A DNA stretch of 64,000 nt from Pelagomonas calceolata. Lineage: Eukaryota; Sar; Pelagophyceae; Pelagomonadales; Pelagomonadaceae. Below the pieces are notes generated by a model that worked only from the letters and a program-made list of their open reading frames with translations, ran no database searches and was not told the origin of the DNA. A program made the position numbers and the translations under genes. How positions within the stretch are numbered: position 1 is the stretch's first letter; every line of letters starts with the position of its first letter. Shown piece after piece: positions 2,830-54,544 of the stretch. Where the stretch lies: positions 2,356,001 through 2,420,000 of the forward strand of contig CAKKNE010000006.1 of assembly GCA_918797485.1 (NCBI GenBank), in the 5' to 3' direction.

Positions 2830-5558
2830 TCACGGCGTCCAGGCCCCGACCGGGCAGACCCCGCCGTTGCCGGTCGCCAGGTCTTCCGCGCAGTCGTACG
2901 ACTCGCGGGCAGGACACGTCAGCGGGCAGTGCGGGTCGCCGGCCCGGCAGCCGCACGTCGCGGGGCAGAAGTACGACAGGGGCCGGATCGGCCAGTTCGC
3001 GCCACCTTCGACGCACAGGTTCGTGGGACCCAATTCGAGCCACGGGAGGACCCAGCAGCCCCAGCGGAGCTGCAGCGATAGACTGACGGCGCTCGCCGCG
3101 AAGTCCTGAGGCCACGTCCACCCGACGCGTTCCCAATTATCCAGGTACGCGTTGTAGGCCGTGTCATTGTACTCCACGTCCTCGCATGGGGTGTCCTGGA
3201 GCCGTGCCATGTACCCTCCCGCGCGCATGCAGTTTCTCCCACAACCCTGGTTCGGGTTCGCCAGAACTAAGGAACTGCGCGGGTCGTCGCAGCCGCAGGT
3301 CCGGGGGCAGAAGAGTCGTGCCCTCAACCCGATGTCGTCGTTGTCGTGGCAGTACCGAGCCACATCACTACAACTCGGCGCGATGCAACTCTTCGTAGTC
3401 GCGTCGCAGAATGGTTTCGACGGCGGACAGCTCCCGCCGCAGGCGTCTCTAGATACCGCGTCGCCGACGGCCCCGCGAATCTGCAGGTCGAGCTCGAACT
3501 GCAGGTCGAGCGTGTCCTCGCACCCGGAATTCCACGTCACGACGGCGTCCTCCACGCTCCGCTGCTTCTGCTGCGCCTGCGCGGAATTTGGACGGAAGGT
3601 GACGTGCCGCGTCGATGGCGTCGCGAGGTGAAGGCCCGCGACGGACGCCGCACGCGGACCACGGACCAGCTGCCACCGGCGGCCACTGGCAGCCGCGTCT
3701 TCGTCGCGAGGCAGCAGGCGGGCGCCGCGGGGTTGCTTCCGAGAGTGGCCCCGGTGGCCTCGTCCCAGAGGTAGCAGGCGTCGCTGTGTGGATCGACCGG
3801 TGACGCCGATGCGCGAGACCCTTCATTCGACCGGTGACGCGCGACGACGCCCCCTCGACGCCGACGCGGCAAGATTCATCAAAAACGGACGCTGGTCGCG
3901 GACTAGCACGTCGCGTTCCCCGCCGCGTCGACACCGATGAAGTGGTCCCGGCCCAACTGCCGCAGCACGGTCTGCACCTGTGCGCAAATCAGTGCTTGCG
4001 TCGCGTCGATGGCGTGGATATGCGACGTTTGATTTATGCACTGCGCGCCAACGGTCCACTCGCGGAAGCTCCAGTCCATGTTGTCGTCCATCGTGAGGTC
4101 AGCGCCCGCGCCGCCGCCGTCCGGAAAGTTCCGCTCCTCGAGGCGGTCGACGCGCGCGCCGGGCGTGTGCGCCCACCTGTGTGGACAAAGTAGCGTCGAT
4201 GGCGTCGGGCGCGTGAGATTTGATTTCCACACAGGCGCCCACGCGACTATCCCAGCCGCGTCGCTCGCGTAGATGAAATCGAGCTCGCCAGCACACAACG
4301 CGTCTCTCGCCTTGACGAAGAGCTCGCGCTGCGGTTGAACGTGGGCGACGAGCAAAGCCGCGACGAACCTGCGTAGAATTATCACGTCAACCCCCACGCC
4401 ATCGACGCACGGGTTGATTTCCACACGGGACGGAACGCGAAGGCCCCGAGTACCGGCGGCGCGAGGACCGCGTACGACGGCACACATGCAGGGAGGGCCG
4501 TCGCGCCCACGAGCCGCTTGAGCCGCCAGGACCCGAGCGCCGCAAAAATTAATTCATCGATCTGCAGAACGATCTCCAGCGCGACGGCGTTCAGGATCAG
4601 GTCGCCGATGCCCGGCGTGATATAAAGCCCCGTACCACGCCAGCACGCAGCAGATGCAGAGTCGTACGACTTGTAAGATAACGCCCCAGGCCGTCCGCGC
4701 GGGGCCGACGTCCATGCGTAGGACGCTGTACAACGTCATGCCGGCCTTGAGCACCGACCCGACGATCGTGAAGGTCCAGACGAGCAGCGCGATGATGCAC
4801 AACAAGACGCCCTGGGGCCAGAGTCGGTCCTGCATGCCCGCGTAGGTCTTGAGCACCGCGAACTGGTCGACTTGCGACGCCGCGACCTCGTTGTACGCCA
4901 GCTCCGAGCAGACCTTGCGCGCCAGCGACACGCCGCGCGCCGCGTCGTAGTACTGCACGTCGTGCGCGATCTCGACGCGAAACTTGCGGAACTCCGAGAC
5001 CGTCTCCGCGGTGATGGCCTTGTCATACCCTAACTGCGCCGCAACATATAAAAAGATGAGCTGCGTGGCGACCATCAGCACGAGCAGGCCCACGGTCGTG
5101 GCGGCGTCGCCCAGTGACGTCTCCGGCGCGCCGACCAAGAGCGCCGCCTCCCAGAGCGACTCCTCCATGTCCCGTTCATCCTCGGTCGCCTCGGCCTCGC
5201 CCGCTTCGGGAGCCACCGCGATAATGGTCTCGTCCGCCTTCTCGCTCCGCGGCCGCGGGCTCGGCCACCAACTCGGCTGCTTCGCCGCTTTTTTACGCGG
5301 GGCGAGCTCCGCGATCGCGGCACTGAGGGCGTTCCGGTCCCTGAGACTTGGAATGCCCAGCTCCGTGCGAATGTCCGCCTTGGACATTTCGACGAGGAGC
5401 GCCCCATCGACTTCATTGGTTCGGAGCGCCTGCGCCGTCCGCGCCGACAGCTTGGTGGCAGCCCAGCCCGCCACTTGATTCACTGACCAGGTCTCGACGT
5501 CGCCGTCCGGCAGGACGTAGTCCTCCTCGGGGGTGACGCCGCAGAGGGCGTCGATCAT
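2830..5558 (-). CDS. SAM-domain multipass membrane protein with Cys-rich (ShK-like) C-terminus; six exons
   Basis: Exons are inferred at 5558-4437, 4368-4243, 4176-4053, 3977-3910, 3783-3654 and 3576-2830, giving about 771 residues. Residues ~20-90 look like a SAM domain (VETWSVNQVAGWAATKLS, then ELGIPSLRDRNALSAAIAEL). Transmembrane segments follow (LLVLMVATQLIFLYVAAQL, LLCIIALLVWTFTIVGSVL, LCICCVLAWYG, FAFVAALLVAHV). The last exon is rich in cysteine, with two ShK-like stretches such as RLFCPRTCGC and YFCPATCGC. The frame shifts by one base in a four-C run at 4628-4631 (GGGG in sense); reading three Gs continues smoothly into GLYITPGIGDLILNAV. Five introns separate the exons and at least three are introners. 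Function is unknown; a cell-surface receptor is a guess. The donor near 4052 is the least certain boundary. Confidence 0.65.
3577..3653. mobile_element. Degenerate introner, intron 5 of the SAM membrane gene
   Basis: In the sense (minus) strand the intron runs from GTGCGGCGTCC to CCGCGCAG and contains the GACGCCATCGACGCGG core. Both flanking exons are in phase 0. No clean target-site duplication remains. Confidence 0.5.
3784..3909. mobile_element. Degenerate introner, intron 4 of the SAM membrane gene
   Basis: The sense-strand 3' end GGTCGATCCACACAG matches the introner terminus. Removing the intron bypasses the TAG at the end of the preceding open frame and joins GNAT to DACYLWDEATG in phase. 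The 5' terminus is eroded. Confidence 0.5.
3978..4052 (+). mobile_element. Introner of the GCGCAAATC subtype, intron 3 of the SAM membrane gene
   Basis: The plus strand reads CTGTGCGCAAATCA, a GCGTCGATGGCGTG core, then TTTGATTTATGCAC. The sense acceptor is GATTTGCGCACAG|GTGCAG. The donor is unresolved: GTGCATAA would fit the duplication rule, whereas GTTGGC keeps the reading frame. Confidence 0.55.
4177..4242 (+). mobile_element. Introner with perfect 8-bp target duplication, intron 2 of the SAM membrane gene
   Basis: The element (4177-4234) has perfect ends CTGTGTGG / CCACACAG and the core GCGTCGATGGCGT. GCGCCCAC occurs at 4169-4176 and again at 4235-4242. In the sense strand the donor is the GT of GTGGGCGC and the acceptor is the element's CAG, so the spliced exon is exactly restored (AWAHTPGARV). 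Confidence 0.85.
4369..4436 (-). mobile_element. Introner, intron 1 of the SAM membrane gene
   Basis: The sense strand reads GTTCCGTC, CCGTGTGGAAATCAACC, the GCGTCGATGGCGTGG core, then TACGCAG|GTTCGTCG. The target duplication is eroded (GTTCCGTC versus GTTCGTCG) and the 3' terminus is lost or replaced. Removal joins LGAF to FVAALLVAHV within one membrane helix. Confidence 0.65.
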
Positions 5559-5858
5559 GCTGGCTTAATCAACCTCTTGGGTTGTGCTGCAGGCGCTGCA
5601 GCAAAGACGACACTCGTGCGCCCAGTGCGCGCCTCCGCGGACGGCGACGACGCGCAGCGGGGCAGCACTCTGGCTCCCAGGAGCAGCAGTCTGGGCAGCC
5701 TCTCTCTCTTCAAACTGAAACTGAATCACTTATGCAGGGGCGGCCCTCCCGGGATTCCTCCGGGGACGCTTCTCCCGAGAGCTGCCCCTCGGAAGACTTT
5801 GGTGACCCGCACGACCTTCAAAGTTCAGCTCACCAAGGTGCAAAGGCTGCCCATCGCC

Positions 5859-8595
5859 ATGAAGCTCCTCCTGGCCCTCGCGGCGGGGCGCGCGGCCGCC
5901 GTCACCGACGTCTTCCTCGCGTCGGACCGCCTCGCGGCCTCGGCGGCCGTGCTCAACTCGGTCTGCGACAACAGCAACCCTTCCCAGCTCCGCTTCCATC
6001 TGCTGGCGCCGACGCAAGAGGAGGCGGAAACGCTGGCGCGCGAGACGGAAACGGCCTGCGATGGCGCGGTTGTGCTGCCGTACGGCCTCGCGGAATTCGA
6101 GGCCCGCGTCCGGACGCTCGGCGAGGAGCCGATGTGGACGACGGCGCTCGCCACGGTCGAACGGTCGACGTCGGCGTACGCCGTACCCGTGGCGCGCTGG
6201 GACCGCGACAAAAAGCACACGTCCCCGTACAACCACGCCCGCTTCTACGCGCCCCAATTGATAGAAGGCGACACGCTCGTGATGCTCGACGACGACGTCA
6301 TCGTCCAGGGCGACGTCACGACGCTCAAGCCGCAGCAAAAGGCCGTGGCCGCGGGCTGCCAGCAGTGGTACGTGAACGGAGACGACTTCGAGGCCTCCAC
6401 AGATTTATCATATGCTGATGTTCCGTACTTCGGCTACGGCGTCTTGTCGGAGGACCGCGGCGACCCAACTTGCGCGCACGAGCACGCGACGGAGTGCGTT
6501 CCCGGCGACGCGCGGCAGTGGTTCGCCGAGGTGGCGCGCACCGACCAAGCCGTCGCGAGGCGCGCCGCCTGGCCGCGGCTCCTCCGGCGCCTCGCCGCGA
6601 TCAAGGACGACGCCTTCGCTTCCCCCTCGCCGGACGACGGCGACGCGTTCGTCGAGGAATTACGGAACGCTCGGGCCTGGAACTTCGGGCTGGTCGTGAT
6701 CGACCTCAACTCGTGGAAACGGCACGAGCTCACGGCGAAATATACTGGGTGGCTCGAGGCCAACTACCGTCGGGAATTCTGGCCAAGCGACTCCCTCGCG
6801 TTCGGGCTGGGCCTGCCGTTCCTCGCGCTGCGGGGCGAGGTCGAGTGCTTTGAGGATGCTGGCGCCGTAAGCTTCGAGCAGGGCCTGGGCGTGGCGCCCT
6901 GGGTCCACACGGACCGCGACACGAAAACTCTAGACGACGCCTTTGCCCTACATTGGAACGGTAATAGGAAGCCGTGGGATATGGATCGGTGCGACGAGGA
7001 GACGCGGCCCTACTTCTTGCGGTACCTCGCGCGGTCCCCGGGACTCTACGGCGGCCACGTCGCCGAATCTAACGGAGACTACTATGCCAAGTGCGCACCG
7101 CCGCCACCCAAGCCCTCGCACCACCGCTTCCTCGCGGACCGATCCACTGCCACGAAGGCGTCGGTCGCGGGCTCGGCATTCTCCACTTGGGACCAGGCCT
7201 ACGCGTGGTATGCGAACGTATATAAGTTCACGGAGCCCAAGGACATTGCGGAGGGCTATACCGAGGCGGACTGGCCGGGGATGGTCCGACTCGCTGCGTC
7301 TTCAGTTTCGCCGTCGACGCGACACTGTAAAGGTCGTTTCCACGCAGGCCATCACCATCGATGATTGTGAAGCCAAGTGCGCCGCCCACTTTCCGAGTGG
7401 CCGCGGAGTCCTCGCGTGCCCCAAGACGGAACTCGAGCGCAACATCCTGAAGTGGCTCTGGTGGCATCCCAGTGCATATGGCTTCGTAGGTAACTATCGC
7501 GGCACGGCGGCGAGCGACGCCTTCGACGGCTGCCCGCGCGGTGCCGGCACCGTGGGCGACGGCACGGCGGGCGTCGCCGGCGATGGCCCCGCGTCGCTGG
7601 GCTTCATGCCGGACAACGGCGGCACGTGCGACATCGAGGAGCGGTGTGCGGTGCTTGTGGGAAACGAGTGGGTGATCGAGAAGGAGACGTGGGGCAAGGG
7701 CGAGTCCTGGGAGGTGACGGACCGATGGCAGACCGGCGAGATCACGTGGAAGGACTGGATCGACGACAAGAGCTGCGGCACCGGGGACTACGCTTTGCCC
7801 GAGAAGGACGTGGAAGAGAACGACAGCGGTGAACTGAGTGGAAATCAACCAGTGCGTCGGGTGCACCCGACAATTCTTCACGAAGTCCTTTCTCGGCGAC
7901 TACGTGGCCGCGCTGGCTCCGTTGAGTAGTGATGAACCGGCACCGCCACGCCATCGAGCGAACGAGCCGTAAAATTTGATTTCCACACAGGCGGTGAAGG
8001 CACGAAGACGCGCTACGAGCACCGCCGGAGCGTTTGTTTGTGCGAGGACGCCGAGGCGGATTCTTCGTACGATACAGCCGATCTCCTCGCCACGTCGCCG
8101 GGGCTCCCCTCCGGCTCGACGGCGTTGCCCTGCGACGACATGCTCGTCTCGAGCGAGGACAAGTACGACAAGACCACGAGTGCCGAGGCGTTCGCGATCG
8201 TCTTCATCGTCCTCATCGTCGTCGGCAGCTGCATCGCGTGCAGCGTCTTCGCCTTCATGAGCCAGCGGCGCCAGAGGATGCTATACGAGGAGAACGAGAA
8301 AAAAAGACAAGCGCAACTGGCCAACGCGGCCCCCATCGTCCACGCGCCTCCCGTCGTCCAGCCCCAGGTCCAGCAAGGCTACGTCCAGCCTCAAGTCGTG
8401 CAGGGCGGCTATGGGGCGCCCCAGGGCACCGTGGTGCAGGGAGGCTACGCCCCCCAGCCGGGCTACGCGCCCCAGGGACAAGTCGTCGGCGCCTACCCGC
8501 CCGCGCCACCTGCGGGACAAGTCTATGCCCCCCAGGGCACCGTCGTTCAGGGCGGCTACGCGCCCGAGGGCGGCTACAAGCCCGAAGGGTACTGA
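5859..8595 (+). CDS. Membrane-anchored GT8-family glycosyltransferase; three exons
   Basis: Exons 5859-7283, 7348-7828 and 7991-8595 give 836 residues with consistent phase. The ATG at 5859 starts a signal peptide (MKLLLALAAGRAAA). Residues ~15-390 form a GT8 transferase. MLDDDVIVQGD contains the metal-binding DxD motif, and LHWNGNRKPW matches the HxxGxxKPW nucleotide-sugar motif of GAUT/LARGE-type enzymes. A Cys-containing region follows (TIDDCEAKCAAHFPSGRG), then one transmembrane helix (AIVFIVLIVVGSCIACSVFAF). The cytosolic tail has repeated GGYAPQ/GTVVQGGY units rich in Pro, Gly and Gln. Activity on secretory-pathway or cell-wall glycans is inferred. A catalytic domain ahead of a C-terminal anchor and PGQ tail is unusual, because Golgi GT8 enzymes are normally type II. 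Confidence 0.8.
7284..7347. mobile_element. Degenerate introner, intron 1 of the GT8 gene
   Basis: The intron begins GTCCGACTCG, contains CGCCGTCGACGCGACAC and ends GTCGTTTCCACGCAG, a worn form of the introner terminus. Both junctions are in phase 0 (DWPGM|AITIDDC). Confidence 0.6.
7829..7990 (+). mobile_element. Long introner with perfect target duplication, intron 2 of the GT8 gene
   Basis: The element spans 7834-7990 (CTGAGTGGAAATCAACC to AAATTTGATTTCCACACAG). GCGGTGAA flanks it at 7826-7833 and 7991-7998. The duplication does not start with GT, so the donor is the internal GT (7829-7830). Splicing therefore leaves three extra bases and one added Gly. The interior is related to the introner at 19890-20044. 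Confidence 0.8.
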
Positions 8596-8721
8596 GCACA
8601 CCCCAAATTCACCCAATGCCTCTCCAAGTCGCCTCCTGCTGCTCTATCGCGATCTCCCCTTACCCTATTGAAATAACTACTGCTCACGTCCACGACCGAA
8701 TAAACTTACGAGAAAACACTA

Positions 8722-13499: not shown

Positions 13500-15568
13500 A
13501 TGGCCGCGTCCACGAAGCAGTTCACGCACGCCGGCGCCCACGTTGTGACGAAAGCGGACGACATCAACGCGACGGCGCCGCCTCCCGCGGAACCCGAGGG
13601 CTTCCCGCTGCACGCCATGCGCATGAAGGACTTCCTCGCGCTGGAGAAGCTGCGGCCGCACAACGCGCTCAAGCGGGAAGGCCTGGTCGTCGCCCTCGAC
13701 TTTAACGGAGCGCACAAGGACGCTAAATTAAATTTCGTGAGCCACCAGTGGCTTGCCTACGCGGAAGCGGACCCGAACGGCGACCACCTGAAGACGATGC
13801 AGGACGTGTTTCGTAGGGTCATGGCCGGCGAGTCCATCTTCCGGTCGGAAGACGACTGGTCGGCCTACACGAAGGGCTCGAACGAGGAGAACGCGCGCTG
13901 GAACCCCCACGCGTGGTCCATCTCGCCCGAGGAATTTACGAAGAGCATCAGCGAGGGCTGGGTCTGGATCCGTGTGGGAATCAACCAGTGAGTTAGGTTG
14001 CGTCGATGGCGTGTGGCGTCCGAAATTTGATTTCCACACAGGTCTGGATGGACTATATATCGATCCCGCAAGTCATCGGCTGTTCTAGGGATGAGGTCGC
14101 TTCCGTGCTCGCCGACCAGAAGGCCGCGATCCAGGCCATACCGTCGTACGTGCGGCACGCCCAGCACTTCTGGATCTGCGCGCCGTCGGGAGCGCAGCAC
14201 GTCGACACGTGCTGCGAATGTAATTACGACACGTGGCATAGTCGTGGCTGGTGCCGGATGGAGGAAGCGGCGTTAAACCTGGAGCGGCTCGGCGACGGGC
14301 GCGCCTTACTCGTGACGCAACCGCTTGGTGAAGAACCGGCCGTCTCGACGTTCGACAAAATAGATAGGGCCTGGTACCAGACAGTGCACAAATCAAAGCT
14401 CGCGGCGCTTATCACACCGTCGACGCGAGCCTGTTCGATGGCGCACCCGACGCACCGGTTGATTTGCGCACAGGAACAAGACGCAGCGCGCCAATTCGCC
14501 GCTCACCGGCGCGTATTCCTGCTGCCGCATGAATCACGTCGTAGTATCGAAGGACGGTGCTAAAACAAAAATAGGCTGCGACAAGGTCGCGCTCAAGGGC
14601 GTCCTCCATACGTTGTTCGACCGCAAGGTCGCCGAGATCCGCGAGGCGTGCAGGGAGGAGGGGAGCTATAAGCTTGACCTCGAGTGGAACGAGCGCATGA
14701 ATCACTCCAATTCAACCGGACAAGGTGCCTACCGCAACCTCTGGTTCCTCGTCGCCCTGAAGCCGATGCAGCTGGCCGACACCGTCGACGAGATCGATTA
14801 TGTCGAGCGGGGCTGGTCGAAGCCCTTCGAGGAACTAACGAGGGAGGACTACGAGACCTTTTGTAGGGAGGGAAACGGCCACCAGGGTGGTTTGGAATGC
14901 GACCCCGAGCGGGACCTGGATACGGTGGCCTGGAACAGTGCGAACATGGGCCACCTGCCGATGCTGCGGTACTGCGTCGAAAAGCTCGGGGCGGACCCGA
15001 ACTACAGTAACCACTACCACATGAGCATGTTGTTGATGACGGGCCGCTTCGGCCACGACGCGTGCCTGCGGTACCTCTGCTCGAAGTTGACGAAGGAGCA
15101 GATCGATCATACGAGCGGTGGTCAAAGGATGTGTGGAAATCAAAATTTTTACGTCGCGTTCTCCACGCCGTCGACGCGACGCCGTTGATCCACACAGGTC
15201 TTGGGCTATCGGCCATTGGGGACGCGGCGAAATGCGGCCACGCCAAGTGCATTCGCACACTGCTCAGCCTCGGCGCTAGTGTCGACCCGCGCCGGAAAAA
15301 CGGGAAGACTCCGCTCCACGAGGCCTGCGCCAACGGCCACGTCGAGTGCGTCCGGTGTCTCGTGGACGGCGGCGCGGAGGTGAACGCCGTCGACAACAAC
15401 GGCATGCAGCCCGTCGACCTGGCGATGGCGTCGGTGACGAACCGGGAGGCCGTGCTGGAGGTGCTGCGCGCCGCCGACGCGACGTTGAGAGCTGCCCACG
15501 CGACGCTGATGAGCGGTGCGGACGCGTGCGACGCGTGCGCCGACGACGGGTGCGAGTGCGCTACGTAA
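13500..15568 (+). CDS. Ankyrin-repeat protein with N-terminal FVSHQW domain; four exons
   Basis: Exons 13500-13961, 14042-14373, 14474-15120 and 15198-15568 join in phase to give 603 residues. The first two exons carry a conserved domain with FVSHQWLAYAEADP, VWMDYISIPQ and SRGWCRMEEAALN, a pattern I associate with protist proteins resembling TIR/HET-like modules (inference). The last exons contain ankyrin repeats (NGKTPLHEACANGHVECVRCLVDGGAEVNAVD). All three introns are introners with recognisable target duplications, which makes this gene the clearest illustration of the system. Function is unknown; ankyrin repeats suggest protein binding. Confidence 0.85.
13962..14041 (+). mobile_element. 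Introner with perfect target duplication, intron 1 of the ankyrin gene
   Basis: GTCTGGAT is present at 13962-13969 and 14042-14049, flanking CCGTGTGGGAATCAACC...TTTGATTTCCACACAG. The donor is the GT of the first duplication copy and the acceptor is the terminal CAG. Splicing restores SEGW|VWMDYISIPQ. The core is GCGTCGATGGCGT. Confidence 0.92.
14374..14473 (-). mobile_element. Introner (GCGCAAATC subtype), intron 2 of the ankyrin gene
   Basis: Ends are GTGCACAAATC and GATTTGCGCACAG. The flanks GTACCAGA and GAACAAGA agree at 6 of 8 bases. The donor is the GT of the first copy. Splicing joins KIDRAW to NKTQRANSP and links two otherwise out-of-phase frames. Confidence 0.85.
15121..15197 (-). 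mobile_element. Introner, intron 3 of the ankyrin gene
   Basis: Ends are ATGTGTGGAAATC and GTTGATCCACACAG, flanked by GTCAAAGG and GTCTTGGG (5 of 8 bases). The donor is the GT of the first copy. Splicing gives HTSG|GLGLSAIGDAAKCGH and opens the ankyrin repeats. Confidence 0.85.
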
Positions 15569-15600
15569 CAAGTGTAACTTAGGAGCCCGGGCCTTGTGCC

Positions 15601-16868: not shown

Positions 16869-19800
16869 TCACTTACTCACCGCGCGGCGGCGAGCAGCCG
16901 GCGAAGAAGCACCGGACGACACCGACCGCTGCGGCGAGAGGCCCCTGAGCTGCGGCGACATCGTGGAGGAGGTCCTCATTGGTTCGGGCGCCCCCACCAT
17001 GTCATGCATGTCGAAGGTACTAAACGCGGCGATGGCATCCCTCACATGATCCATCTTTTTGGATTTTTTGTGCGTCTCGAAGTGTCGTAATTGTTGCCTC
17101 CAGGTCGGCGTCGGGGTCACGACGCTCTCTTCCGAAACGCTCTCCTCGGACGGGCTCCGCTTCGCGGCCGCCTTTATTAAAAAGTTTTCCTGATGAGCGG
17201 CTTCTTCAAACCAGTGCCTCACTTCATCATTTTCACATAACGTCATGACGTCCGCCTTGGTTATCGAAGCGATCTCGGCCCAGTCCTTGCTGCGGTTGCA
17301 GATCGTGACTTTTGAGGTACATTCCTGGGAGAAGAGCCCGGCGCCGCCCGCGCTCATGCCCGGTATCAGCAGTTGCAACTGCTGCAAATTCGCGTCGAGG
17401 TAATTTTTCTGGTGGCCTTGCCCCATCCGCTCGATGGGAATGACGACTGATAATCGACCGAGTAAGACATAGCAGAGCGCCCGGGCCGGCTCGCCCCGCC
17501 GGAACACGACCTGCCCCGCCGGCACGGTCTGCATCGACAAGGCTCGCAGGAACTGGATCACGGTCGCGCCCTCGTGCGCGCTCACGAAGGGAATGGCTCT
17601 ACATTTTTCAAATAGAGCGGCCAGATCGAGTTCCAATCTCAGAGCCTTCGGGAGCTTCGCGGCGACATCCTCTAAAGGTAAACAACCTTTTCTCGAGCGC
17701 CATGCAAATTTGTAGTACTTGAGGACTCGCTCGGAAACCTTGGCGTCGACGCGGTGGTAGTGGAGGCATCTTCTTACCGCAAAGATCTCGTCCCGCTCGT
17801 CCGCGTCCGCGTCGGAATTCAACACGGCGTGCATGACGTTGCCGACCTCGGCAATCAACACGGCGTTCAGCAGTAACGTGTAGAAGAAACATAGTACCCC
17901 AATGAAGCGCGAGAGAGACGACTGGGGCACGCCCGCCGGCGAGATCCAGCTTATGTTGCCCGTGAGTACACCGGCGACGCGCCAGATGCAGTCAAAGTAC
18001 GCGTCGCCTATATTCGTGAACAATGGGTGCAATGGCGGGTATTCTCCGGTGCCGCCCACATTCCAGATGTCATCATTATTATCCATGTAGTTGGACCAGT
18101 CCAGATCCGACCCCTTCCATCCTTGTAATCGGCCACGGTACATGTCGTACGCTATCAGACAGCCCATGAAGTGCATCGAGAGTACTGTTAATACGAGGAG
18201 ATACACTAATCGCGCCGAATGGCCGGAGATGTATTCTCTATTGGAAGCTTGAAACCTCACTAACCGTAGGAACACTAACCCGCCGATGACGCGGTAGCCT
18301 TCGGAACCCCAGCGGTCGCACTTGATCACTTCACTCCTATTACGTTGTCTTTGGAGCGAGGCCGTGCAGCCGCAGAACCGCACTATATCAGGTATGAGCG
18401 CTAAAGCTTCGGCGATGAACGGGCTCTCGCGCGCGTTCGACGAGCGGTCCCGCCGCCAGACGTAGTTCTTCGCGATTCTCTTGCGATTAAACACCTCCTC
18501 GTGGAACTGGTCGACGAAGGACCTGTGTGTTTTTGTGTCCTTGTCTGTCTGTCCCTCTCTCGCGTCTTGTCTCCGTGTCTGTCCAACGCCATCGACGCGT
18601 AGCTTCTCTGGACGCTCGTAGACCGCGCTTCTCCGCGCCTCGGCTCTCTCTCCAACACCGTCGGTCTCTCGACGCCATCGACGCCACGGAGGACTTTATA
18701 TGTCCACCTCCACGCCATCGACGCGCAGCGTGGTGTGACGTAAGGCGCCCGACGCCATCGACGCGATGCACTGGTTGATTCCCACACGGCAAACAAAGGA
18801 CGTGTTAAACGACAGCACGATGTCGAACACGAAGACCGCGAATAACGTGGCCGTGATCGAAGCAGGCGGCCGCCAGCCGAACCCCATCCCAATTGCTTCT
18901 AAGGCCGCCGAACACGCATATAACTCGGCAACAATAATCCTCCACGTCTGCACGACGAAGCCCTCGCCACTCAAAATCAACCCCTGATGCTCTTGCGCAC
19001 TTCTAGCGCGGTCCCAGATCTCCCGTCGTCTTTCGCGGCCCGCGTCGATCGACAAGGGTCGCATCAATTTCCGCCGACTCTTCGGCTGGCTAACACCACT
19101 GTCGTCTCTCGCAAATCTACGATCGGCGTCGATCTTTGTTAAGTGAGGGCACTTCTGGAGCGCCACCGACAGGTGTCGCGTCCCGCCCCTGCCGAACGGA
19201 TTCGCATCTAATTCTAAATGCTCCAAGACCGACTCTGAGTTCGCGACGAGGGCCTTGGCGATGGCCTGCACGCCGCTATCTCCGACACCATTGGTATCTA
19301 ATCGTAAATGTTTTATCTTCGTATCTGTTTTCAGTAGTGCCGCGACGTGTATTGCCGCGTCGTCGTCGACGCAGTTGTTGTCCAAGAACAGCGCATGCAA
19401 GGCACCGTTGGCGCACGCGTCACATATTGACTTGACTCCTATGGACGAGATGTCGTTCGTTCCTAGCCTCAATTCAAGTGTATGTTCCGTGCTCAGCGTT
19501 TCGAGGAGCTGGGCAATTTCAGAAGCACCGGCGTCTCCTAATTGGTTCATGGCCAAGTCTAACACTCGCAGATTCGAGGCCGTGCCGAGGGCCATTCGTA
19601 GCGAGATCGCGCCCGGCTCGCCGATCTGATTCCCGGCCAAGAACAAGCCTTCCAACCCAATAGGCTTCGTTCTTTTAATCCAGGACGCCAGCTTGCGCGT
19701 CTTGGCGTCGCCTAGCTCCTTGAAGGATAGGTCCACTTTACCAGGTACTTCCTCAAGAGCCTCGTACTCGCCGACCGACGCCGGCTGCGGCTTCACGGCG

Positions 19801-20617
19801 AGCACGCCCGACGCTTCCTTCCGGACGATGCGCGTGTTGTCGTTCTTCAGGTTGACCTGGATCATGCCTTCTGCTGGAGGCGTGGCGACCTGTGTGGAAC
19901 TCAACCAGTGCGTCGGGTGCATTTCTCGGCGATGCGCCGAGCGGTGAGGAACCGGCATCGTCACGCCATCGAGCAGATATCATGAAGATGGCGTGAAGGT
20001 CGACACGAACGCGCCGTAAATTTGATTTCCACACAGGTGGCCACTCTACTAGAAGTAGCCCGCGCGCCCCATCTTACTTCAAACGGAATGCCCTCTAGTT
20101 GAATAGCACCGTCCGGCCCTTGGTCCTTCATCGCCTTTGAGATCTCCTCGCAGCGCGCCGCGTCGTAATTTTCCCAGGAGCCGTCCGGCCCTTGGTGCGA
20201 GAAGACCTCCACTGTTTGTTCTCGTCGGACGATGCGCGTGTTGTCATTCCTAATATTGACTTGGATCATGCCCTCGTCCGGTGGCGTCGCTACGCGCGAG
20301 GAAGTAGCTTTCGAGCCCCAACGGACCTCGAACGGGATGCCCTCCAATTGAACAGCCCCATCAGGACCCTGCGCCTCCATGGCCGTCGCAATCTCAAGAC
20401 ATCTAGCCGCGTCGTAGGGCTCCCACGCTCCGTCCGGGCCCTGGTGGCTGAAGACCGCCGGCCCGCTCTCGTCGCGTGTCTGCGTCTTGGCAAAAGCTAG
20501 AGCGCTCTTCCAGCGCTGCTTTATTTGCGGGCTCGCGCTGGCTTCTGCGGGTGGCTCCTCGGAGGCGCCGCGCTCGGAGGCGCCGCGGAGCATGGAGGCC
20601 AGGCGATGAGGGACCAT
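16869..20617 (-). CDS. WWE-WWE-LRR-cyclic-nucleotide-gated-type ion channel fusion; three exons
   Basis: Exons 20617-20045, 19889-18802 and 18522-16869 join in phase to give 1104 residues. Residues ~40-210 hold two WWE-type domains (GAWEPYDAARC... and GSWENYDAARC..., each ending in EGMIQVN and NDNTRIVRR). Residues ~250-430 are leucine-rich repeats of the ribonuclease-inhibitor type (LRVLDLAMNQLGDAGASEIA, HLRLDTNGVGDSGVQAIA). The rest is a six-helix channel (ATLFAVFVFDIVLSFNTSFV, LVYLLVLTVLSMHFMGCLIA) and a cyclic-nucleotide-binding-like domain (VPAGQVVFRRGEPARALCYV). The pore region (YFDCIWRVAGVLTGNISW) lacks the GYG/GFG selectivity motif, so potassium selectivity is doubtful. Each junction between modules is spanned by sound exon joins, so the fusion is not an artefact of merging genes. 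Confidence 0.8.
18523..18801 (-). mobile_element. Composite introner in the channel gene
   Basis: The outer ends read CCGTGTGGGAATCAACC (sense 5') and CACACAG (3'). The target duplication is GTCCTTTG / GTCCTTCG (7 of 8). Splicing restores LSFNTSFVDQFHEE across a membrane helix. The interior holds four GACGCCATCGACGC-like cores plus a CT/GT-rich tract, as if elements had inserted into or expanded within an older one. Confidence 0.85.
19890..20044 (+). mobile_element. Long introner between the WWE and LRR regions of the channel gene
   Basis: The element runs CTGTGTGGAACTCAACCAG to AAATTTGATTTCCACACAG, flanked by GTGGCGAC and GTGGCCAC (7 of 8). It is antisense to the host gene. Donor GT comes from the duplication; splicing gives ATSSR|VATPPAEGMIQVN. 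Confidence 0.88.
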
Positions 20618-21954: not shown

Positions 21955-22987
21955 CTAGAACTTGAAGCACATCGCCTCGGTGTAGCCCAGCGCCTTCAGG
22001 ACGCCGTCGATGGGGCCTTGTTTGGGCGGCTTCCCCTTCTCGAACTTCTTGGGGCCGCAGATGGCCTTGTACATCGGCGGCGGCCCGCAGACCATGACGA
22101 TGTTTCCTTCCGAAGGCGGCGGCAGGTGCGCCTTTACCATGTCCGCGTCGACGTAGCCCGTCAGGCCGCCCGTCCACGACCAGAACATGCCGAGCGGCTT
22201 GTCCACGCAGTACTTCACGGTGAAGCGGTCGTGCTTCGCCGCCAGGGCATCCAAGTGGTCCTTCAGGAAGATGTCGCCCTCGTTTTTATTGCAAAAAATA
22301 AGATCGATCTTCGTTTTATCGTCAGGTAGGCTCAACAGCTCCTCGGCGACCTGGAGGCACGGCGTGAGCCCCGAGCCGCCGGCGACCATGCCGACGCGCT
22401 TCCATTTATTGGCTTCGACTTTAATTTTCGTAAAGCAGCCCTTGACGCGCAGCGTGTCGCCCACCTTCCGGGAACACACGTGGCTCGACACGTTGCCCAC
22501 GCCCGGGTAGTCTTTTACAACTAATTCCATGCGCCCGACCTGTGCGGAAATCAAACGTTCGGGTGAGTAAGCCTAAGACGCCTCGTGCGAGGACGCCAAG
22601 CACTCTCGCGCTGCGTCGAGGCGGCCAGAATGGTAAATAATACCTCCAGGCCGGCCTGACGCACTGGTTGATTTCCGCACTGCGCCCGACCGTGTCGTCT
22701 CTGGTAACAGGCGTGTAGGGTCTCGCGATGGTGCCGCTGCCGTCGCGCTTCTCGCCCTCGACCATGAGCATGCCCGCGCACGTCATGCCCAGCGTGTCGC
22801 TCGGGTCGGGGAACGCTAGCGTGACTTTGTGGACGTTGGCTCCAATCTTGTCATTCCTTGCTACGACCAGGGGCGTGAAGTCCTTCTTGTTGATGGCCGC
22901 GTCGCAGAAGGTCGCGGTGGCGACACTGGTGGCGGCGACGCCGGCTATTTTGCCGCAGCGGCTGAGTGCACGGGCGAAATGCGCCAT
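21955..22987 (-). CDS. NADH-cytochrome b5 reductase-like protein; two exons
   Basis: Exons 22987-22691 and 22539-21955 give 293 residues. A hydrophobic N-terminal region (GKIAGVAATSVATATF) could anchor or target it. The FAD-binding motif is RPYTPV. The pyridine-nucleotide site is GGSGLTPCLQV, and VCGPPPMYKAICGP carries the conserved CGPPPM. The family transfers electrons from NADH via FAD to cytochrome b5 for lipid desaturation and related reactions. The start at 22987 is preferred; an upstream ATG at 23059 falls inside the CTAG element. Confidence 0.9.
22540..22690 (-). mobile_element. Introner with perfect target duplication in the b5 reductase gene
   Basis: The subtype ends are CTGTGCGGAAATCA and TGATTTCCGCACTG. 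CGCCCGAC flanks it exactly at 22532-22539 and 22683-22690. In sense the donor is the GT of GTCGGGCG. Splicing restores TRDDT|VGRMELVVKD. Confidence 0.92.
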
Positions 22988-24466: not shown

Positions 24467-26769
24467 TCAAGAGTCCTCCGCCGCCATTGGTGCGCCTCCG
24501 CCGCATCCGCCGCCGCATCCGCCGCCGCCGCCGCAACCGCCGCCGCCGCCGCATCCGCCGCCGCCGCCGCATCCGCCGCCGCCGCCGCAGCCACCACCTC
24601 CGCAACTGGCCGCCGCGCCGGCCCCGCAACTACTGCCCGCGCCGCCGCCTCCGCACGCCGCCGCCCCGCAGGCCGCGCAGGCGCCGCCGCCACACCCTCC
24701 GCCGTCGTAGTTTGAGCTCTTGGCCCGCCGCGCCTTCTGGGCCGAGTAGTAGTCCCCGGACGCGATCAGCGCTTCAAGCTCCGCGATCTCTCTGGCGTAG
24801 CATCCAAAACAGAAGAAGCAGGCCGCGCAATCCTTCCTTTCCTTGAGCATCTTTTCCAAGCGGACCCGCATGATCTCGTCGCCGTGGGCCGTGCCGAAGC
24901 GGTAGTAGCCGTCGCCGAATTCGCCGGCACCAAATGCGTAGCCTGTGTGGAAATCAAAATTTTACGGCGCGTTCGTGCTGAATCGTCGCTTCGTCCTCCA
25001 CGCCGACACACTGGTTGATTTCCACACAGCGCGTAGCCCTCCCGCTGCGGGTTCGCGTTCGCCGTGGTCGTCGACTTGGGTGCCCCTGCAATAAAGTCGG
25101 GCGCCTTGCTGAACGGCACGGAGCCCCCGGCCGCGCGCCGCACGACGCGCGTGTTCTGGTTCGCCGTGTTGACCTGGATCATGCCCTCGGGCGGTCGCGC
25201 CGGCATCTTGGCCGACGTCGCCTGCGCGCCCCAGCGCACCTCGAAAGGGATACCTGGCAAGTTGACCGCACCGCCCGCCGGACTCTTTCCCATAGCAGCG
25301 GCGATGGCCGCCGTGCAGGCAGTGTCGTAGGGAGTCCAGCCACCCCCGGGGTCCCGGTGTTCGAATCCCGTGGTTCGCGTCAGCGAGAACGACTGGAGGT
25401 CGGCGACCGACCCGTCCGGGAGCGTCGCGGTGCCCTCGCCGCGCGCGTAGGCCTCGTTGACGGCCGCGTTCGCCGCGGCGTCGAGGCGGACGTTGGCTCC
25501 GTAGATCCACCAGGGCATCGAGGACACGTGGACACGGCGCACGACGCCCGTTTCCCTGCGCGTCTGCGTCATAGCCGAAAGATCGACGTCGTACAGGCCC
25601 AGCGACACCCTGCCTTTCGACGCGTACGCCGCCTCGAGCGTCGCCACGTCGTGCGGCTGGTACGCTATCCACTTGTGCAGCGCTATCCACTTGTGCACGC
25701 CTTTCGAGCTCGCCAGCGCGTCGCCTTCGACGCTCCAGACGCGCGGGACGACGTACGACGTGCCGACGACGACGCCCTCGGCCACCGGCGGCGCCCCGCC
25801 CGGCTGCCACGTGACTCCGGCGGCCTCGCGCAGCAGCCGCCACCGAATCTCGACCGTCTCCTTCTCCCAGGTCGGTTCGAAGTAGGCCTCGGGCGGCTCG
25901 CCGCGGTACATGCCGCCCGGGACCGCGTATCGTTCGCCGCCGTACGCCTCGGCCCAGAGCTTCTGCGTGACCGCGTACTGGCGGTTCAGCTTGGAACCCT
26001 CGGCGCGGTCGTTGACGGAGTCGTCGTGGGGCAGCTCGAAGCCGCACAGCCGCCGCGTGTCGGCCGCGTATGTGCTGGCGCTCGCCAAGATGTGCGTGTG
26101 CCAGAAGAGGTCGATCTGGTAGGTGGGCACGAGGAATTCGCCGCTGCGCATGAGCCGGAGAAAGTTCTCGTAGCGTTTTACGCCATCGTGCAGGAAATAG
26201 CCCTCGTCGAACCGCGGGCCGGACACCTGCCAGAGGAACGTGCGCTGGCGTTCGCACGCCGCCGCCACGTCGAAGCCGTCGAGGACGAGGGTGCCGGCGT
26301 CGTCTCCGCTATCGCCTTCGAGGAAGAACGGCTCGTCCGGGTAGGCGGCGGCCCAGGCCTTCTGTGTCGCGTTCTGTGTCGCGCCCTCCGCTTGGATGAG
26401 GAACGGCTTCGTCTCCGGCAGGCCGAGGCGCCGCGCCGTCCTAGCGTAGCTCCGGGGCGCGAGCCGGTGGCAGTGCCAGGCCCAGGCGACGTCCGGCGGC
26501 GGCGCGAGCGCCGCGCCCGGCTTTGCGGCGGCGAGGAGCGGCAGCCACTTGGATGCGTAGCGCTCGAGCGTCTTGGCCGACGGGGCGCTCAGGGACACGC
26601 CGGCCCGGTGCGCCGCCCGGAGGAACGCGAGGTGCTGCGGGACCGCGGCGAGCAGGGCCTTTGCGTCGAGGCCTTCAGCCGACGACCCGGCCTCGAGGCT
26701 GAGCCGTGCCTGGGCCTTGGCCAGACCTGCCTCGACGGGGTCGATGGGCGGTGGCGGGAGGGCTTGCAT
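24467..26769 (-). CDS. GRDP/DUF1399-type protein with WWE domain and Cys/Gly-rich tail; two exons
   Basis: Exons 26769-25038 and 24942-24467 give 735 residues. The DUF1399 region has the family's His-rich motifs (DVAWAWHCHRLAP near residue 95 and YQIDLFWHTHILA near 225). A WWE-type domain follows at ~515-590 (GGGWTPYDTACTAAI, EGMIQVNTANQNTRVVRR), like those in the channel gene. The C-terminus runs from CAACFFCFGCYAREI into long CGGGGG repeats encoded by CCGCCG arrays. A tandem 18-bp duplication near 25658-25695 gives HKWIALHKWIAY. The single intron appears to use a GC donor. The molecular role is unknown; plant GRDPs are linked to stress and development. Confidence 0.75.
24490..24700. repeat. 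CCG-rich low-complexity array encoding Cys/Gly repeats
   Basis: CCGCCG-type triplets alternating with GCATCC or GCAACC units encode the CGGGGG repeats of the GRDP-like protein on the minus strand. It is coding low complexity, not a CRISPR array. Confidence 0.8.
24943..25037 (-). mobile_element. Introner with apparent GC-AG splice sites in the GRDP-like gene
   Basis: The ends CTGTGTGGAAATCA / TGATTTCCACACAG are perfect. The flanks are TGCGTAGC and CGCGTAGC (7 of 8). In sense the duplication starts GC (GCTACGCG), and only a GC donor restores the frame (EGYAFGAGEFGDGYYRF). Using the element's own GT would shift the frame and lose the Cys/Gly tail. Confidence 0.8.
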
Positions 26770-27081: not shown

Positions 27082-29586
<2,505 letters not shown>

Positions 29587-37525: not shown

Positions 37526-39627
37526 GCGGCGCTCAACAGCGACTTCTCGTTCGTGATCTTCTCGTTCCTGTTCGTGTGGTTCTGGATGTGGGTCCACGTC
37601 GGTTCCTTCGCCGTCGCGTCCTTCTCCATGCTCCAGATTTTGATCTCGTTACCGTTATCGATGTTCATATACTCCGTGGTTTTTCAGATCGGCTACTTCG
37701 GCGCGATGCAGATTCTGGTGGTGTTCATCATCCTCGGTATTGGTGCGGATGATGTATTTGTGTACAGCGACGCGTGGCTCCAATCTGCGGAAGACGTAGA
37801 GAGGGAGTTTGGTGAGGCCCGCGGCTCTTACCTGGAGCGGCGGGTCGCCTACGCATATGCGCGGGCGTTGGAGGCGATCTTCAACACGTCGTTTACGACG
37901 GCCGTCGCGTTCTTCGCGACGGCGACCTCGAAGATCATGCCGATCAGTACCTTTGGTATTTTTGCGGCGATCTGCGTGCTGATGAACTACGGCCTCGTCA
38001 TGATCGCCACGCCGGCGGTTTGGGTGCTGTGCACGAAGCGCGATCCGCCTACAAATGACGACGAGGACGTGCTGCCCGAGTCGCGGACGGTCGGCTCGTC
38101 GCTCGAGGCCGGCGCCGAGCCCGAGGAGAAGAAGCGGTGCTGCAAGGCGCCGGCGTGCTGCGGCCGGCTCGTCGACGCGCGCCGCGGCCTCTTCGGCGGT
38201 TATTTGAAGGTCGTCGGGAAGCGGCCCGTCGCGCTGGCGCTGGTCCTTGCCACGGCGGCGGTGGGCGCGACGCTCGCCTACTTCGCGTCGCGGCTCGTCC
38301 TGCCCTGTGTGGAAATCAGGCTGAACGCCATCGAGCAGACGCCATCACGGGGACAACGTCGCGTCGATGGCGTGAAGCGTCCGATTTGATTTTCACACAG
38401 GTCCCACCGTCGGAGCCCGAGGAGTGGTTCCCGCCGCAACACATGTATACCAGAGTGCAAGTCCTCGAGACGAACAAGTTCGGCGCGAGCCTCGCGAACA
38501 CGTTTCCCGACGCGTCGCTGTACTGGGGGCTCGACCACCTGCGCCGGCCCAACTTCGACCGCTATGAGCCGCACAAACATAGGGGTAGAGTGTCGTTCTC
38601 GGCGCCGATAGACCTCTACACGGACGACGCGCAGAATCAAATTCTGTTCGCGTGCGACGCGCTGCGCAAGGCGCGGGGCGGCAAGCTCGCGCGGCCGGGG
38701 TCGGTTGTGTGCTTCATGGAAGATTTCCAAGTCTGGCATGCCGAGAGCTTCGACGGTGCATCTACGTACGGCCTAGATAAAGCTACGTTCGACGACCGCC
38801 TCAGTATCTTTCGCACGACCACGGTGCCCCAGAACGACGTCAACCCGATCGCGTCGTGGGAGCGCATTATTGGCTTTTCAGAAGGTGAGTTACGCTTCGT
38901 GCGCGTCGCGAGCCGCTTGAACGCTAGACACGACGACTCGCTCGACAAAAAGAAGAAGCTCCTCAAGGCGTTCAAAAATTTGATCAAGGACGTCAACGAC
39001 GAGCCGGGCACCAAAGACCTCGGCGACGACTTGATCGACTACAGCCTGACCTTCTCGTGGTACGCGACGCAGGTGGCGCTCGTCGACGGCCTGACGTTCG
39101 GGTTAGCCCTCGCGTTTCCCGTGGCCTTTGTCGTCCTCTGCTTCGCGACGTCGAATCTGGTGCTGGCCTTCTACGCGATGGTGACCATCGGGTTGATCGT
39201 GGCGTCGGTGCTCGGCACGGTCTACCTCATCGGCTGGAACCTGGGCATCAAGGAGTCGGTCGCGGGCGTCGTCGTCATCGGCTTCAGCGTCGACTACACG
39301 ATCCATCTAGGCCACATGTTCGACGTCGCCAGGAGCCAAGGCTTAACGACGCGCCAGGAGAAGTTCGCCTACTCCATCAAAAAGATGGGCGAGACCGTGC
39401 TGGCAGGAGCCATCACGACGGCCGGCTCGACGGTGTTCCTCCTCGCCTGTCAGTTGACGTTCTTCACGGCGATGGGTACCTTGATCATCCTCACGGTTGC
39501 TTACTCGCTGGGCTACTCGCTATTATTCTTTATGCCGTTGCTCCGCGTCGCGGGCCCGGAGGGCCGCGTCGGCGACATCTGCCACTTCCTGAGGGGCCTC
39601 AAGTGCGCGTGCTGCCGGCGCGCGTAG
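37526..39627 (+). CDS. Dispatched/Patched-like RND membrane protein, 5'-truncated; two visible exons
   Basis: Exons 37526-38296 and 38401-39627 encode about 666 residues. The first exon starts after a CGCGCAG acceptor and has no ATG until about 37628. A sterol-sensing-like helix bundle is clear (ILVVFIILGIGADDVFVYSD contains the GADD proton-relay motif; FNTSFTTAVAFFATATSK). A second extracellular loop and the C-terminal RND bundle follow (GVVVIGFSVDYTIHLGHMF). The first helix and first ectodomain expected for the family are absent. The region upstream is occupied by the opposite-strand secreted gene, and the gap to TAF2 is too small to hold them. It is either a truncated gene or one whose 5' exons lie beyond a nested gene. 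Confidence 0.7.
38297..38400 (+). mobile_element. Introner in the Dispatched-like gene
   Basis: Ends are CTGTGTGGAAATCA and TTTGATTTTCACACAG. Flanks are GTCCTGCC and GTCCCACC (6 of 8). It carries the GCGTCGATGGCGTG core. The donor is the duplication GT; splicing gives ASRL|VPPSEPEEW in phase 0. Confidence 0.88.
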
Positions 39628-45811: not shown

Positions 45812-45880
45812 TTAGCTCGAGACTTTTTGCAGGCATTTTGCATCGTAGGGCTGCCCCCGAGCGATTTGACCACATACAAG

Positions 45881-47017: not shown

Positions 47018-47050
47018 GCACTACCTAGAAACAAAATACAAGAACCATCC

Positions 47051-52856: not shown

Positions 52857-53162
52857 TCACTGCTGCAAATGCAACGGCTTGGACGCCGGCGCCGCCAACC
52901 CCACCGCCGGCTCGACGGAGGCCGAGAGGCCCATCTGCGAGATCTGGTTGTCCGTGTAGCCCTGGGCCCTAAAGTCCTTGATGCGCAGCTTGTCCGTCTC
53001 TATCACACTGCCTTCCCGCTCGATCTCCATCACTAATGGTAGAAACATCACTATCGAGGTAGCGGCCACGACCCAGGCGACGCGTCCTCCCCTCTTCCAG
53101 GCGACGCCGGCCCACTTTTTGGCGGTGTCCGCGAAGGTCTCTAGCTTGCCGCGGAGGGACAT
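52857..53162 (-). CDS. TOM22: TOM22/TOM9-like mitochondrial import receptor subunit
   Basis: The ATG at 53162 gives 101 residues. A short N-terminal amphipathic segment (MSLRGKLETFADTAKKWAG) leads into one transmembrane helix (GRVAWVVAATSIVMFLPLVM) with the conserved Pro, then EIEREGSVIETDKLRIKDFR and a C-terminal intermembrane-space tail. Size and layout fit the short TOM22/TOM9 of plants and stramenopiles, which organises the TOM complex. The acidic cytosolic receptor domain of animal and fungal TOM22 is missing, as in plants. Confidence 0.75.
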   Translation of the reverse strand: MSLRGKLETFADTAKKWAGVAWKRGGRVAWVVAATSIVMFLPLVMEIEREGSVIETDKLRIKDFRAQGYTDNQISQMGLSASVEPAVGLAAPASKPLHLQQ

Positions 53163-53569
53163 GGTGTCCTCCTGTGCTGCAGAGAGCGATTGGCTGGAAC
53201 GCGGCGCGGCGGCGTCGCTCGCGAACAATTCGCTTCCGCTGAGAGCGCTGCGGCTAGAAACGCTTCCTCGCTGAGCTGGCACCCGTGAGTGGTGTGCCGT
53301 GTTTTTTGCGCGAGGACTTGCTAGCGCATGTAAGACACTAGGAGGCATAGACGTGTGAACCCGTTTGTGATTAAAAACATGCTATGCTAGGGGTGAAACA
53401 CCGTACTTAGATCCGTCTTGATCCGAGCTTCGGAGGCGTGGTCCAAACCCGACAGATCCACGCCGTCGACGACGCGAGAGAACCGCAGTAGTACCGGGGA
53501 CAACAACTCTTAAAGGGATCGGGGAGAGGGAAAACGGCACGTCGGCGAGTGCCAGCGGTCGGACGAGGG
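53163..53569. other. Intergenic region upstream of TOM22
   Basis: About 407 bp. It holds one CTAG element (53321-53341) and an introner-core-like CACGCCGTCGACGACGCG at 53460-53477 without terminal repeats. Confidence 0.45.
53321..53341 (+). promoter_or_regulatory. CTAG-flanked upstream element, copy 11
   Basis: CTAGCG-CATGTAAGACA-CTAG is consensus-like but ends GGAGG rather than CAA. It is 159 bp upstream of the TOM22 start. Confidence 0.55.
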
Positions 53570-54544
53570 CTATACCGGCACGCGCAATCCGGCGGGCGGC
53601 GAGCGCGTCGCTTGTGAAGGAGACAGCGTCTCTGAAAACGACCGCATGCGCGCCTCGGGCGACTGCGCGGGCACGGGCGGCGCGAGCGACCAGTCGAGCG
53701 CGGGCTCGGAGGCGTGCACGGACATGTAGTAGCGTGCTGCCGTGCTGTCTCGACTCGTGAGCGGCACGAGGATGAAGTCATTCTGAAATTTCGAGCCGTC
53801 CGCGTGGTAGTTGATCAGCGACGTCGCGCACTGGCCGTCGCGGCCCATGGCCTCGCCCATGGCCGCGACGGCGCGCGCGCACGTTTCCGGTCCTTGTAAA
53901 TGGCGGCAGCCCCGGCCGATGACCTCGGCCTCGCCGTAGCCGCAGCGCTCCAGCCACGCGCCGGAACACGCGACGATGGCGCAGTCGGCGTCGTGCGCGT
54001 CTCCCACCAGATACTGGCTCTCGGGCGTCGTCCGCTGCAGGTAGTCGACGAAGACGCGGTTCACTCCTTCTTGCGAGATGGTCGCGAGGATGTCGGCGAT
54101 GGGCAGGCCGACGTGGTCCTTCGTCTGCGCGAGGCTCCGGCCCGTCGTCGCCGGGCTTCCGGGCATGGGCAGGTTGGTTGGCGGCGTGGTTTCGTACGCG
54201 CCGCGCGGGTGGTAACCTGTGCGGACGGGAGATGGCGGCTGTGGTGAACAACGTCGCATCGATGGCGTAAAGCAACTTGCAGCCTTCGAACACGCCGAGT
54301 CGCACGGTTTTTCTCGCCGCAGAGGGTGTCAGCAAGGGCTGTGCAAATCCTAAATTTGCGCACGCGCTGCCGCACAGATGCCGATGCACTCGCTTGTGCA
54401 GCCTAATACAGATACAGAAAACTTGTCAGACGGCTTTTTAAGTTGCGCGACGCGCGGATGGCGGCACCGAGGGTCGTTCAAGTTGGTGACTGGACTGCTG
54501 AACGAACAAAATTTTTTGCACGGCGATTCATCCGTCAATACCAC
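53570..54544 (-). CDS. LOV/PAS photosensor-like protein; at least two exons, start uncertain
   Basis: The main exon is 54216-53570. It encodes a LOV-type PAS domain: DADCAIVACSGAWLERCGYG, then VIGRGCRHLQGPET around the flavin-reactive Cys, then INYHADGSKFQNDFILVPL. The consensus is GxNCRFLQG, so Asn is replaced by Gly and Phe by His beside the reactive Cys. An upstream exon (to 54544) joins in phase across an introner but shows no ATG, so translation may begin at MPGSPATTGRS or in a further exon. Blue-light sensing is inferred. No bZIP or kinase is attached. Confidence 0.65.
54217..54375. mobile_element. Introner (GTGCGG subtype) at the 5' end of the LOV gene
   Basis: CTGTGCGG at 54217 pairs with CCGCACAG ending at 54377, and the interior has GCATCGATGGCGTAA. 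The acceptor is TCCGCACAG|GTTACC in sense. The target flanks do not match. The donor appears to be the element's own GTGCGG, unlike most copies here. Confidence 0.6.

Follow-up and report, generated by a model that had tools for sequence, protein, structure and literature searches.

The introner elements of Pelagomonas calceolata, characterized here in a 64,000-nucleotide stretch of its genome (the window; G000:C6:2356001-2420000) and across the assembly, appear to be non-autonomous cut-and-paste DNA transposons resembling miniature inverted-repeat transposable elements (MITEs). Insertion is predicted to duplicate 8 bp of the target; splicing would then run from a GT or GC at the start of the upstream copy of this target-site duplication (TSD) to the AG that ends the terminal inverted repeat (TIR) of the element, with one TSD copy and the element leaving the transcript together and the protein remaining unchanged. 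The 5' splice site very probably consists of the dinucleotide that opens the upstream TSD copy, with only the 3' AG supplied by the element, and we place high confidence in the account as a whole (a transposon with TIR and TSD, a TSD donor, and an element AG), which was built from genomic sequence and protein alignments. The origin of new introns is a long-standing question, and this chromosome-scale genome offers many insertions, certain of them recent, whose TSDs retain the sequence that preceded insertion beside the presumed working donor; donor quality, orientation, and survival are therefore measurable intron by intron.

The assembly searched comprises 32,445,274 bases in 8 contigs, and the GC content of the window is 62.5%. 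Passages of Guerin et al. 2022 (PMC9481584) describe the P. calceolata genome as six nuclear contigs of 32.4 Mb plus a plastid and a mitochondrion, with a nuclear GC content of 63%, 0.45 introns per gene, and a peak of intron lengths near 210 bp that those authors tied to introner elements. Named relatives of the proteins of our genome include Aureococcus anophagefferens and Pelagophyceae sp. CCMP2097.

Terminal repeats, target duplications, and splice sites

The element has the hallmarks of a MITE: it is short (203 bp at full length), carries a 13-bp TIR, is flanked by a TSD of fixed length (8 bp), and has no coding capacity. Among 61 copies, the shortest measured 58 bp and the longest 204 bp; 26 near-full-length copies had a median pairwise identity of 0.915, with identities to the consensus of 0.75 to 0.98. 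Two subfamilies differ in their ends, which are CTGTG...CACAG in the major and often CAGTG...CACAG in the minor one. The 8 bp directly outside CTGTGTGG were repeated on the opposite side of the element, identically in 27 of 42 copies, with one mismatch in 10, and with more in 5.

The initial annotation had proposed a family of introns with common ends in this window, and 19 matches to CTGTGTGGAAATC (≤2 mismatches) were indeed present, compared with 0.96 expected and with none of 100 dinucleotide shuffles reaching 19. Its termini also recur elsewhere in the genome, where GTGTGGAAATC occurs exactly 967 + 966 = 1,933 times (6 + 0 for a reversed control) and a 25-base A-end 1,076 times at ≤3 mismatches (control, 0). 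The end of the minor subfamily, TGTGC(A/G)(C/T)AAATC, occurs 241 times (control, 9). Profile searches of the window and of twenty unselected 10-kb stretches that served as a comparison sample (264 kb in all) recovered 12 and 16 separate copies, respectively; the window is therefore denser in introners than the sample. Since two large duplicated regions are reported in a passage on this genome (PMC9481584), part of the genome-wide copies would be duplicates. L080 (G000:C3:187219-187730) and L081 (C3:605154-605660), on one contig, contain the same introner with the same TSD, GTCGCGGC, and are probably a duplicated gene stretch and not two insertions. A local cluster was seen at L018 (G000:C3:1500001-1510000), with five introners in 10 kb, four of them near full length.

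Splice-site logic was examined in three overlapping scored sets: a first set of 42 distinct copies, 41 picked solely on their ends and one (4177-4234) on its TSD as well; 19 copies fetched afterwards; and a final set of 76, limited to TSDs with ≤3 mismatches and lengths of <300 bp, which includes most of both earlier sets. The final 76 are distinct copies in coding contexts at unrelated gene positions; L081 was merged with L080, and L089 with the copy in L018 that it repeats. The 76 copies underlying the profile include 7 of the window and 8 of the comparison stretches. Outside the window, exact ends and not the TSD served to pick most copies, hence the sample is biased to well-kept copies. 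The coding strand was assigned from the flanks, independently of the TSD, by a codon model for which long open frames served as training data (74 of 82 kept).

On the coding strand, the upstream TSD copy began with GT or GC in 42 of 42 copies of the first set, in 18 of the 19 fetched afterwards (the exception had a GT one base out of register), and in all 76 of the final set (54 GT, 22 GC). By comparison, GT or GC occurred on the antisense side in 26 of 76 and made up 73 of 462 dinucleotides (∼16%) in upstream exons. Every one of the 76 elements ends in AG in the coding sense, and a terminal CAGTG, which has no AG on its opposite strand, was found on the donor side only (8/8). Removing the element with one TSD copy kept the frame in 70 of the 71 copies for which this was decidable, with introns in phase 0 (30 copies), phase 1 (19), and phase 2 (22). 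The rule at the TSD start and the retention of frame, both observed directly, together point to a donor at the TSD start and an acceptor at the AG of CCACACAG. With AG at the end of the inverted repeat on either strand, most copies would be usable in both orientations; the A-end lies in sense relative to the gene in 50 copies and in antisense in 23, with 3 unclear (n = 76; p = 0.002). We infer a transposase and, within genes, selection under which only insertions into targets starting with GT or GC on the coding strand would persist.

The TSD also preserves traces of what may have happened to donors after insertion. Six TSD pairs with ≤3 mismatches differ at position 2, and in all six the intronic copy holds the stronger donor (intronic versus exonic, GT versus GC in three, GC versus GA in two, and GT versus GA in one; sign test, p = 0.03, two-sided); two less well matched pairs (L051 and L064) agree. 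Though the cases are few, they are suggestive of donors improved after insertion, with later mutations seeming to better the donor copy from GC or GA to GT.

Homologous proteins and competing explanations

Homologs provide a second view of the intron boundaries. In the cytochrome b5 reductase gene of the window, the peptide joined by removing the intron at 22540, RDDT^VGRMELVV (^, junction), shows no gap at the junction when aligned with the best-matching solved b5 reductase (2eix). The relatives P0121, P0122, and P0123 cross this junction without extra residues, and the peptide is identical in P0121 and P0123, which may be cDNA or intronless alleles. A light-harvesting gene at L064 (G000:C2:2140740-2141450) carries a major-subfamily introner, and its joined peptide is likewise gap-free at the junction against the two solved LHC chains shown. 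The right end of this introner is shortened and has lost bases, no scored pair was formed for it, and the apparent start of a minor-subfamily introner lies just downstream.

Comparison with relatives also bears on the age of the insertions. At locus L035, relatives are uninterrupted at the protein level at two introner sites: P0241 and P0242 at the first, and P0241, P0243, P0245, and P0248 (74 to 96% identical) together with P0242 (73%) at the second. P0245 and P0248 lie on contigs of 71.9 and 57.1 kb and start at an internal codon, which suggests that they are plain open reading frame calls on unspliced DNA and that the second site is probably empty on these contigs. Such uninterrupted frames suggest that some insertions are recent. 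At 24943, both the relative P0001 and the unspliced frame of the window continue into the introner (HALCGNQPV), and the insertion is therefore common to both. On this protein-level evidence, the family is a mixture of older and more recent gains. The initial annotation's reading of these sequences as introner elements, here of the DNA-transposon kind, is supported by the TIRs, the 8-bp TSDs, the ∼2,000 exact ends, the occurrence of both orientations, frame restoration, and the uninterrupted orthologous sites.

An alternative is that the introners carry both splice sites, with a GT donor inside CTGTGTGG whose use would leave either a +10 frameshift or a +12, four-codon scar. Such an arrangement has a precedent in a passage on a +12 family of Aureococcus sp., in which 4 bp of introner and 8 bp of TSD remain (PMC9860276), and CTGTGTGG holds two GTs, but an internal donor leaves the GT or GC at the TSD start of every scored copy unexplained. 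The +10 version would break the frame, whereas the frames that were kept fit removal of the element plus 8 bp, and homologs have no extra residues at L035, 22540, 24943, or L064. We therefore regard this alternative as improbable.

Several observations weigh against a donor at the TSD start or limit the evidence for it. The TSD limit excluded 9 of 86 scored rows (2 with GT, 1 with GC, and 6 with other dinucleotides); among the six excluded rows without an in-register GT or GC, five have, as judged by eye, a GT at a distance of 1 to 6 bases, and the sixth is a mis-pairing. A tenth row (>300 bp, a spurious spanning pair) was dropped later. One of the 71 decidable copies breaks the frame, and 22 of 76 depend on the unusual donor GC; in these GC copies, a donor inside the TIR (CTGT^GTGG) would add four codons in the same frame and is opposed by homologs only. 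A second b5 reductase alignment (7rom) has one residue inserted near the junction. P0121, P0123, and P0241 lie on contigs of 1.3, 1.0, and 4.6 kb and could be cDNA rather than empty sites, and we infer splicing itself from frames and homologs. Finally, no transposase with the introner ends was found with PF18758, PF05699, PF12762, PF10551, or PF21787; the single hAT transposase detected has other ends.

Two further alternatives are each highly improbable. RNA-based spread, in which excised introns reverse-splice into transcripts and are copied back to DNA, as proposed for fungal introners, would accommodate copies that lie in coding sequence and keep their splice signals, but TIRs and 8-bp TSDs are transposon signatures, 23 of 73 oriented copies run opposite to the majority, and TSD position 7 is A-biased (29/76; p = 2.5e-4) though it is no splice position. 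That the copies are ordinary, unspliced MITEs in untranslated regions or broken genes could be argued from weakly coding flanks such as those of L069 and L055 and from copies that are frame-safe if retained (e.g., 4177-4242), but it conflicts with in-frame coding sequence on both sides, the continuous proteins of relatives, and a donor rule that holds in all 76 copies.

Introns of the window

The 12 profile copies of the window are listed below with their predicted intron coordinates.

3978..4052, minus strand: introner intron of the minor subfamily (GTGCRYAAATC ends); donor GT one base out of register; the weakest of the set
4177..4242, minus strand: introner 4177-4234 (58 bp) plus donor-side TSD 4235-4242; coding-strand TSD GTGGGCGC, identical copies
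4369..4436, minus strand: decayed introner; donor GTTCCGTC, acceptor CGCAG
7826..7990, plus strand: introner 7834-7990 plus donor-side TSD GCGGTGAA; GC donor, identical copies
13962..14041, plus strand: introner 13970-14041 plus donor-side TSD GTCTGGAT; identical copies
14374..14473, plus strand: introner 14382-14473 with a CAGTGC variant end on the donor side; donor copy GTACCAGA, exon copy GAACAAGA
15121..15197, plus strand: introner 15129-15197; donor copy GTCAAAGG, exon copy GTCTTGGG
18702..18789, minus strand: introner-derived stretch with its A-end at 18789 and unbounded splice sites; GCGTCGATGGCGT repeats come after it
19890..20044, minus strand: introner 19890-20036 plus donor-side TSD GTGGCCAC; exon copy GTCGCCAC
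22540..22690, minus strand: introner 22540-22682 plus donor-side TSD GTCGGGCG; identical copies; cytochrome b5 reductase gene
24943..25037, minus strand: introner 24943-25029 plus donor-side TSD GCTACGCG; GC donor, exon copy GCTACGCA
38297..38400, plus strand: introner 38305-38400 plus donor-side TSD GTCCTGCC; exon copy GTCCCACC; sterol-sensing/Patched-like gene

Exact boundaries could be given for 11 of the 12, and removal at these boundaries yields a continuous peptide over the junction, viewed with 150 nt of flank either side. In 10 of the 11, no stop interrupts the best frame within this span; the exception is 3978-4052, with stops in its downstream exon. The lengths of the introns at 3978, 4177, and 7826 (3 of 11) are multiples of three, so their removal does not follow from frame alone. 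Retention of 7826-7990 would add stops; retention of 4177-4242 would not, and the case for that intron therefore rests on its ends and TSD. The boundaries drawn by the initial annotation, which had noticed neither the TSDs nor the splice-site logic, stood as to family and frame restoration and shifted at the 5' end, which would lie 8 bp upstream of CTGTGTGG, within the TSD copy. Its count of ∼21 introners among 22 introns, against 12 profile copies, is not established; about seven more 3' ends, at 3577, 3784, 15964, 28087, 40508, 47841, and 54217, look like those of decayed copies by eye and gave no profile match. Pairings of 3978 with 4234 (the true element being 4177-4234), of 38027 with 38400, and of L048 636 with 1013 were discarded as artefacts.

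As for the proteins said to become recognizable after intron removal, b5 reductase was confirmed, and the AMPK-type kinase is named by eye only. Among the joined genes, Pfam backs those for b5 reductase, LRR, and sterol-sensing/Patched proteins; a scan of gene model g13k, in which two introns are misplaced by 9 and 1 bases, gave one ankyrin match, below the cut-off. The kinase gene contains a 165-bp intron at 28087-28251 that joins MKR^...; it lacks introner ends, has similar internal repeats, and is perhaps a decayed copy. An Rfam scan of the window at gathering scores produced no match, and a tRNA search of the window found none.

The repeat GCGTCGATGGCGT, which the initial annotation took as the usual core of the family, did not prove diagnostic and was rejected as such: of its 32 copies in the unselected 264 kb, 14 are not covered by profile matches, and of those in the window most fall within stretches called noncoding by the codon model. 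It occurs exactly 3,001 times in the genome (control, 1) and in the window at 3609, 16058, 18586, 18672, 28132, 37497, 47915, 47968, 56035, 57375, and 62492. The repeat could be a mark of decayed introners or a short repeat in its own right. At 47901-48026, a long imperfect hairpin of repeated GTACTGATG and GCGTCGATGGCGT units lies inside a coding interruption.

Possible hAT affinity and known introners

The TSD length of 8 bp is that of hAT transposons, which a passage in PMC3942097 characterizes by 8-bp TSDs and TIRs of 10 to 25 bp; for the hAT element Hermes, a passage in PMC2803484 gives the target nTnnnnAn, and several of the listed targets start with GT. The Pelagomonas introners resemble these systems in their TSD length and short TIRs, and their targets may lean toward nTnnnnAn. 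At TSD position 7, the A noted above compares with a background of 0.20, and A or G was found in 59 of 76 (p = 1.5e-5); C at position 8 (32 of 76) was not significant (p = 0.06), and position 2 is confounded by splicing. The likeness stops at the main subfamily, which ends in CTGTG and not CAGNG, and at the transposase, no cognate having been found with the Pfam families searched.

The TIRs of hAT elements start with CAGNG, and only the minor subfamily supports CAGTG as an ancestral end, with 130 CAGTGC ends (control, 2) beside the 241 TGTGC ends. In the major subfamily, we rejected CAGTG as a plain ancestral end, as its 20 exact CAGTGTGGAAATC ends (control, 1), set against 1,933 of GTGTGGAAATC, may be simple mutation. 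Over the stretch common to both lists, 99 of 100 listed TGTGC places (241 in all) and 58 of 100 listed CAGTGC places (130 in all) gave 37 end pairs, comprising 27 of CAGTG with TGTGC, 10 with TGTGC at both ends, and none with CAGTG at both ends (4.9 expected if independent).

Searches for an autonomous partner with PF12762 and PF10551 gave no match; PF18758 and PF21787 gave none either, but the control genomes were silent too, so absence is not shown by these two. PF05699 identified one hAT gene. It belongs to an intact-looking transposon at L029:4049-7699 (G000:C4:4499549-4503199) with a 721-amino-acid open frame, a perfect 20-bp TIR (CAGGGCAGCAGAAGGGCAAG), and an identical 8-bp TSD (TTGCTCGC); its protein matches only itself in this genome. 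On present evidence, we rejected this transposon as the introner mobilizer, its TIR not matching the introner ends. Since the only hAT transposase found has other ends and CAGTG is rare in the major subfamily, we do not file the family as hAT.

A tentative scenario, which we would not yet favor, is that the introners descend from a hAT-type MITE whose transposase favors GTNNNNAC-like targets, that a T-to-A change at the end (CACTG to CACAG) gave the 3' splice site, and that donors were upgraded later. A GTNNNNAC-like target would deliver a ready 5' splice site with many insertions. CACAG would have arisen first at one end, giving the minor subfamily (CAGTG...CACAG) with splicing in a single direction, and later at both, giving the major subfamily (CTGTG...CACAG), which can be spliced either way, and splicing in either direction would account for the larger success of the major subfamily. 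In the intronic TSD copy, weak donors (GA, GC) would have turned into GT, with the old bases still recorded by the exon copy. If the link is true, it would explain why a transposon can be preadapted to become an intron. The matches listed in our literature search included none joining introners and hAT, although subscription papers were mostly outside its coverage, so the link is not shown to be unpublished.

Huff et al. reportedly described the introners of Aureococcus and Micromonas in 2016 as DNA transposons co-opting a splice site. The introners of Aureococcus anophagefferens reportedly share with those of Pelagomonas a pelagophyte host class, a MITE-like form with TIRs, both orientations, and one splice site carried with the other taken from the duplicated target; the grading of donors as GT, GC, and GA and the possible hAT affinity come from the Pelagomonas genome alone. 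The mechanism is already published for Aureococcus and others, and the gain here is its base-by-base resolution. A passage in PMC10228655 summarizes the Aureococcus and Micromonas introners as splice-site-co-opting DNA transposons, and passages of Gozashti et al. 2022 (PMC9860276) place transposon introners across eukaryotes. A literature search for introners in Pelagomonas or pelagophytes returned Guerin et al. 2022 (PMC9481584) alone, which very probably describes the same genome; its passages contain the introner-like length peak near 210 bp, without the ends, TSDs, splice-site logic, or subfamilies resolved here. Introner family 4 of Aureococcus sp., as described in a passage of PMC9860276, also has an 8-bp TSD and introner-made introns; it carries both splice sites and leaves 12 extra nucleotides, whereas the Pelagomonas family appears to take one site from the TSD and to leave no scar.

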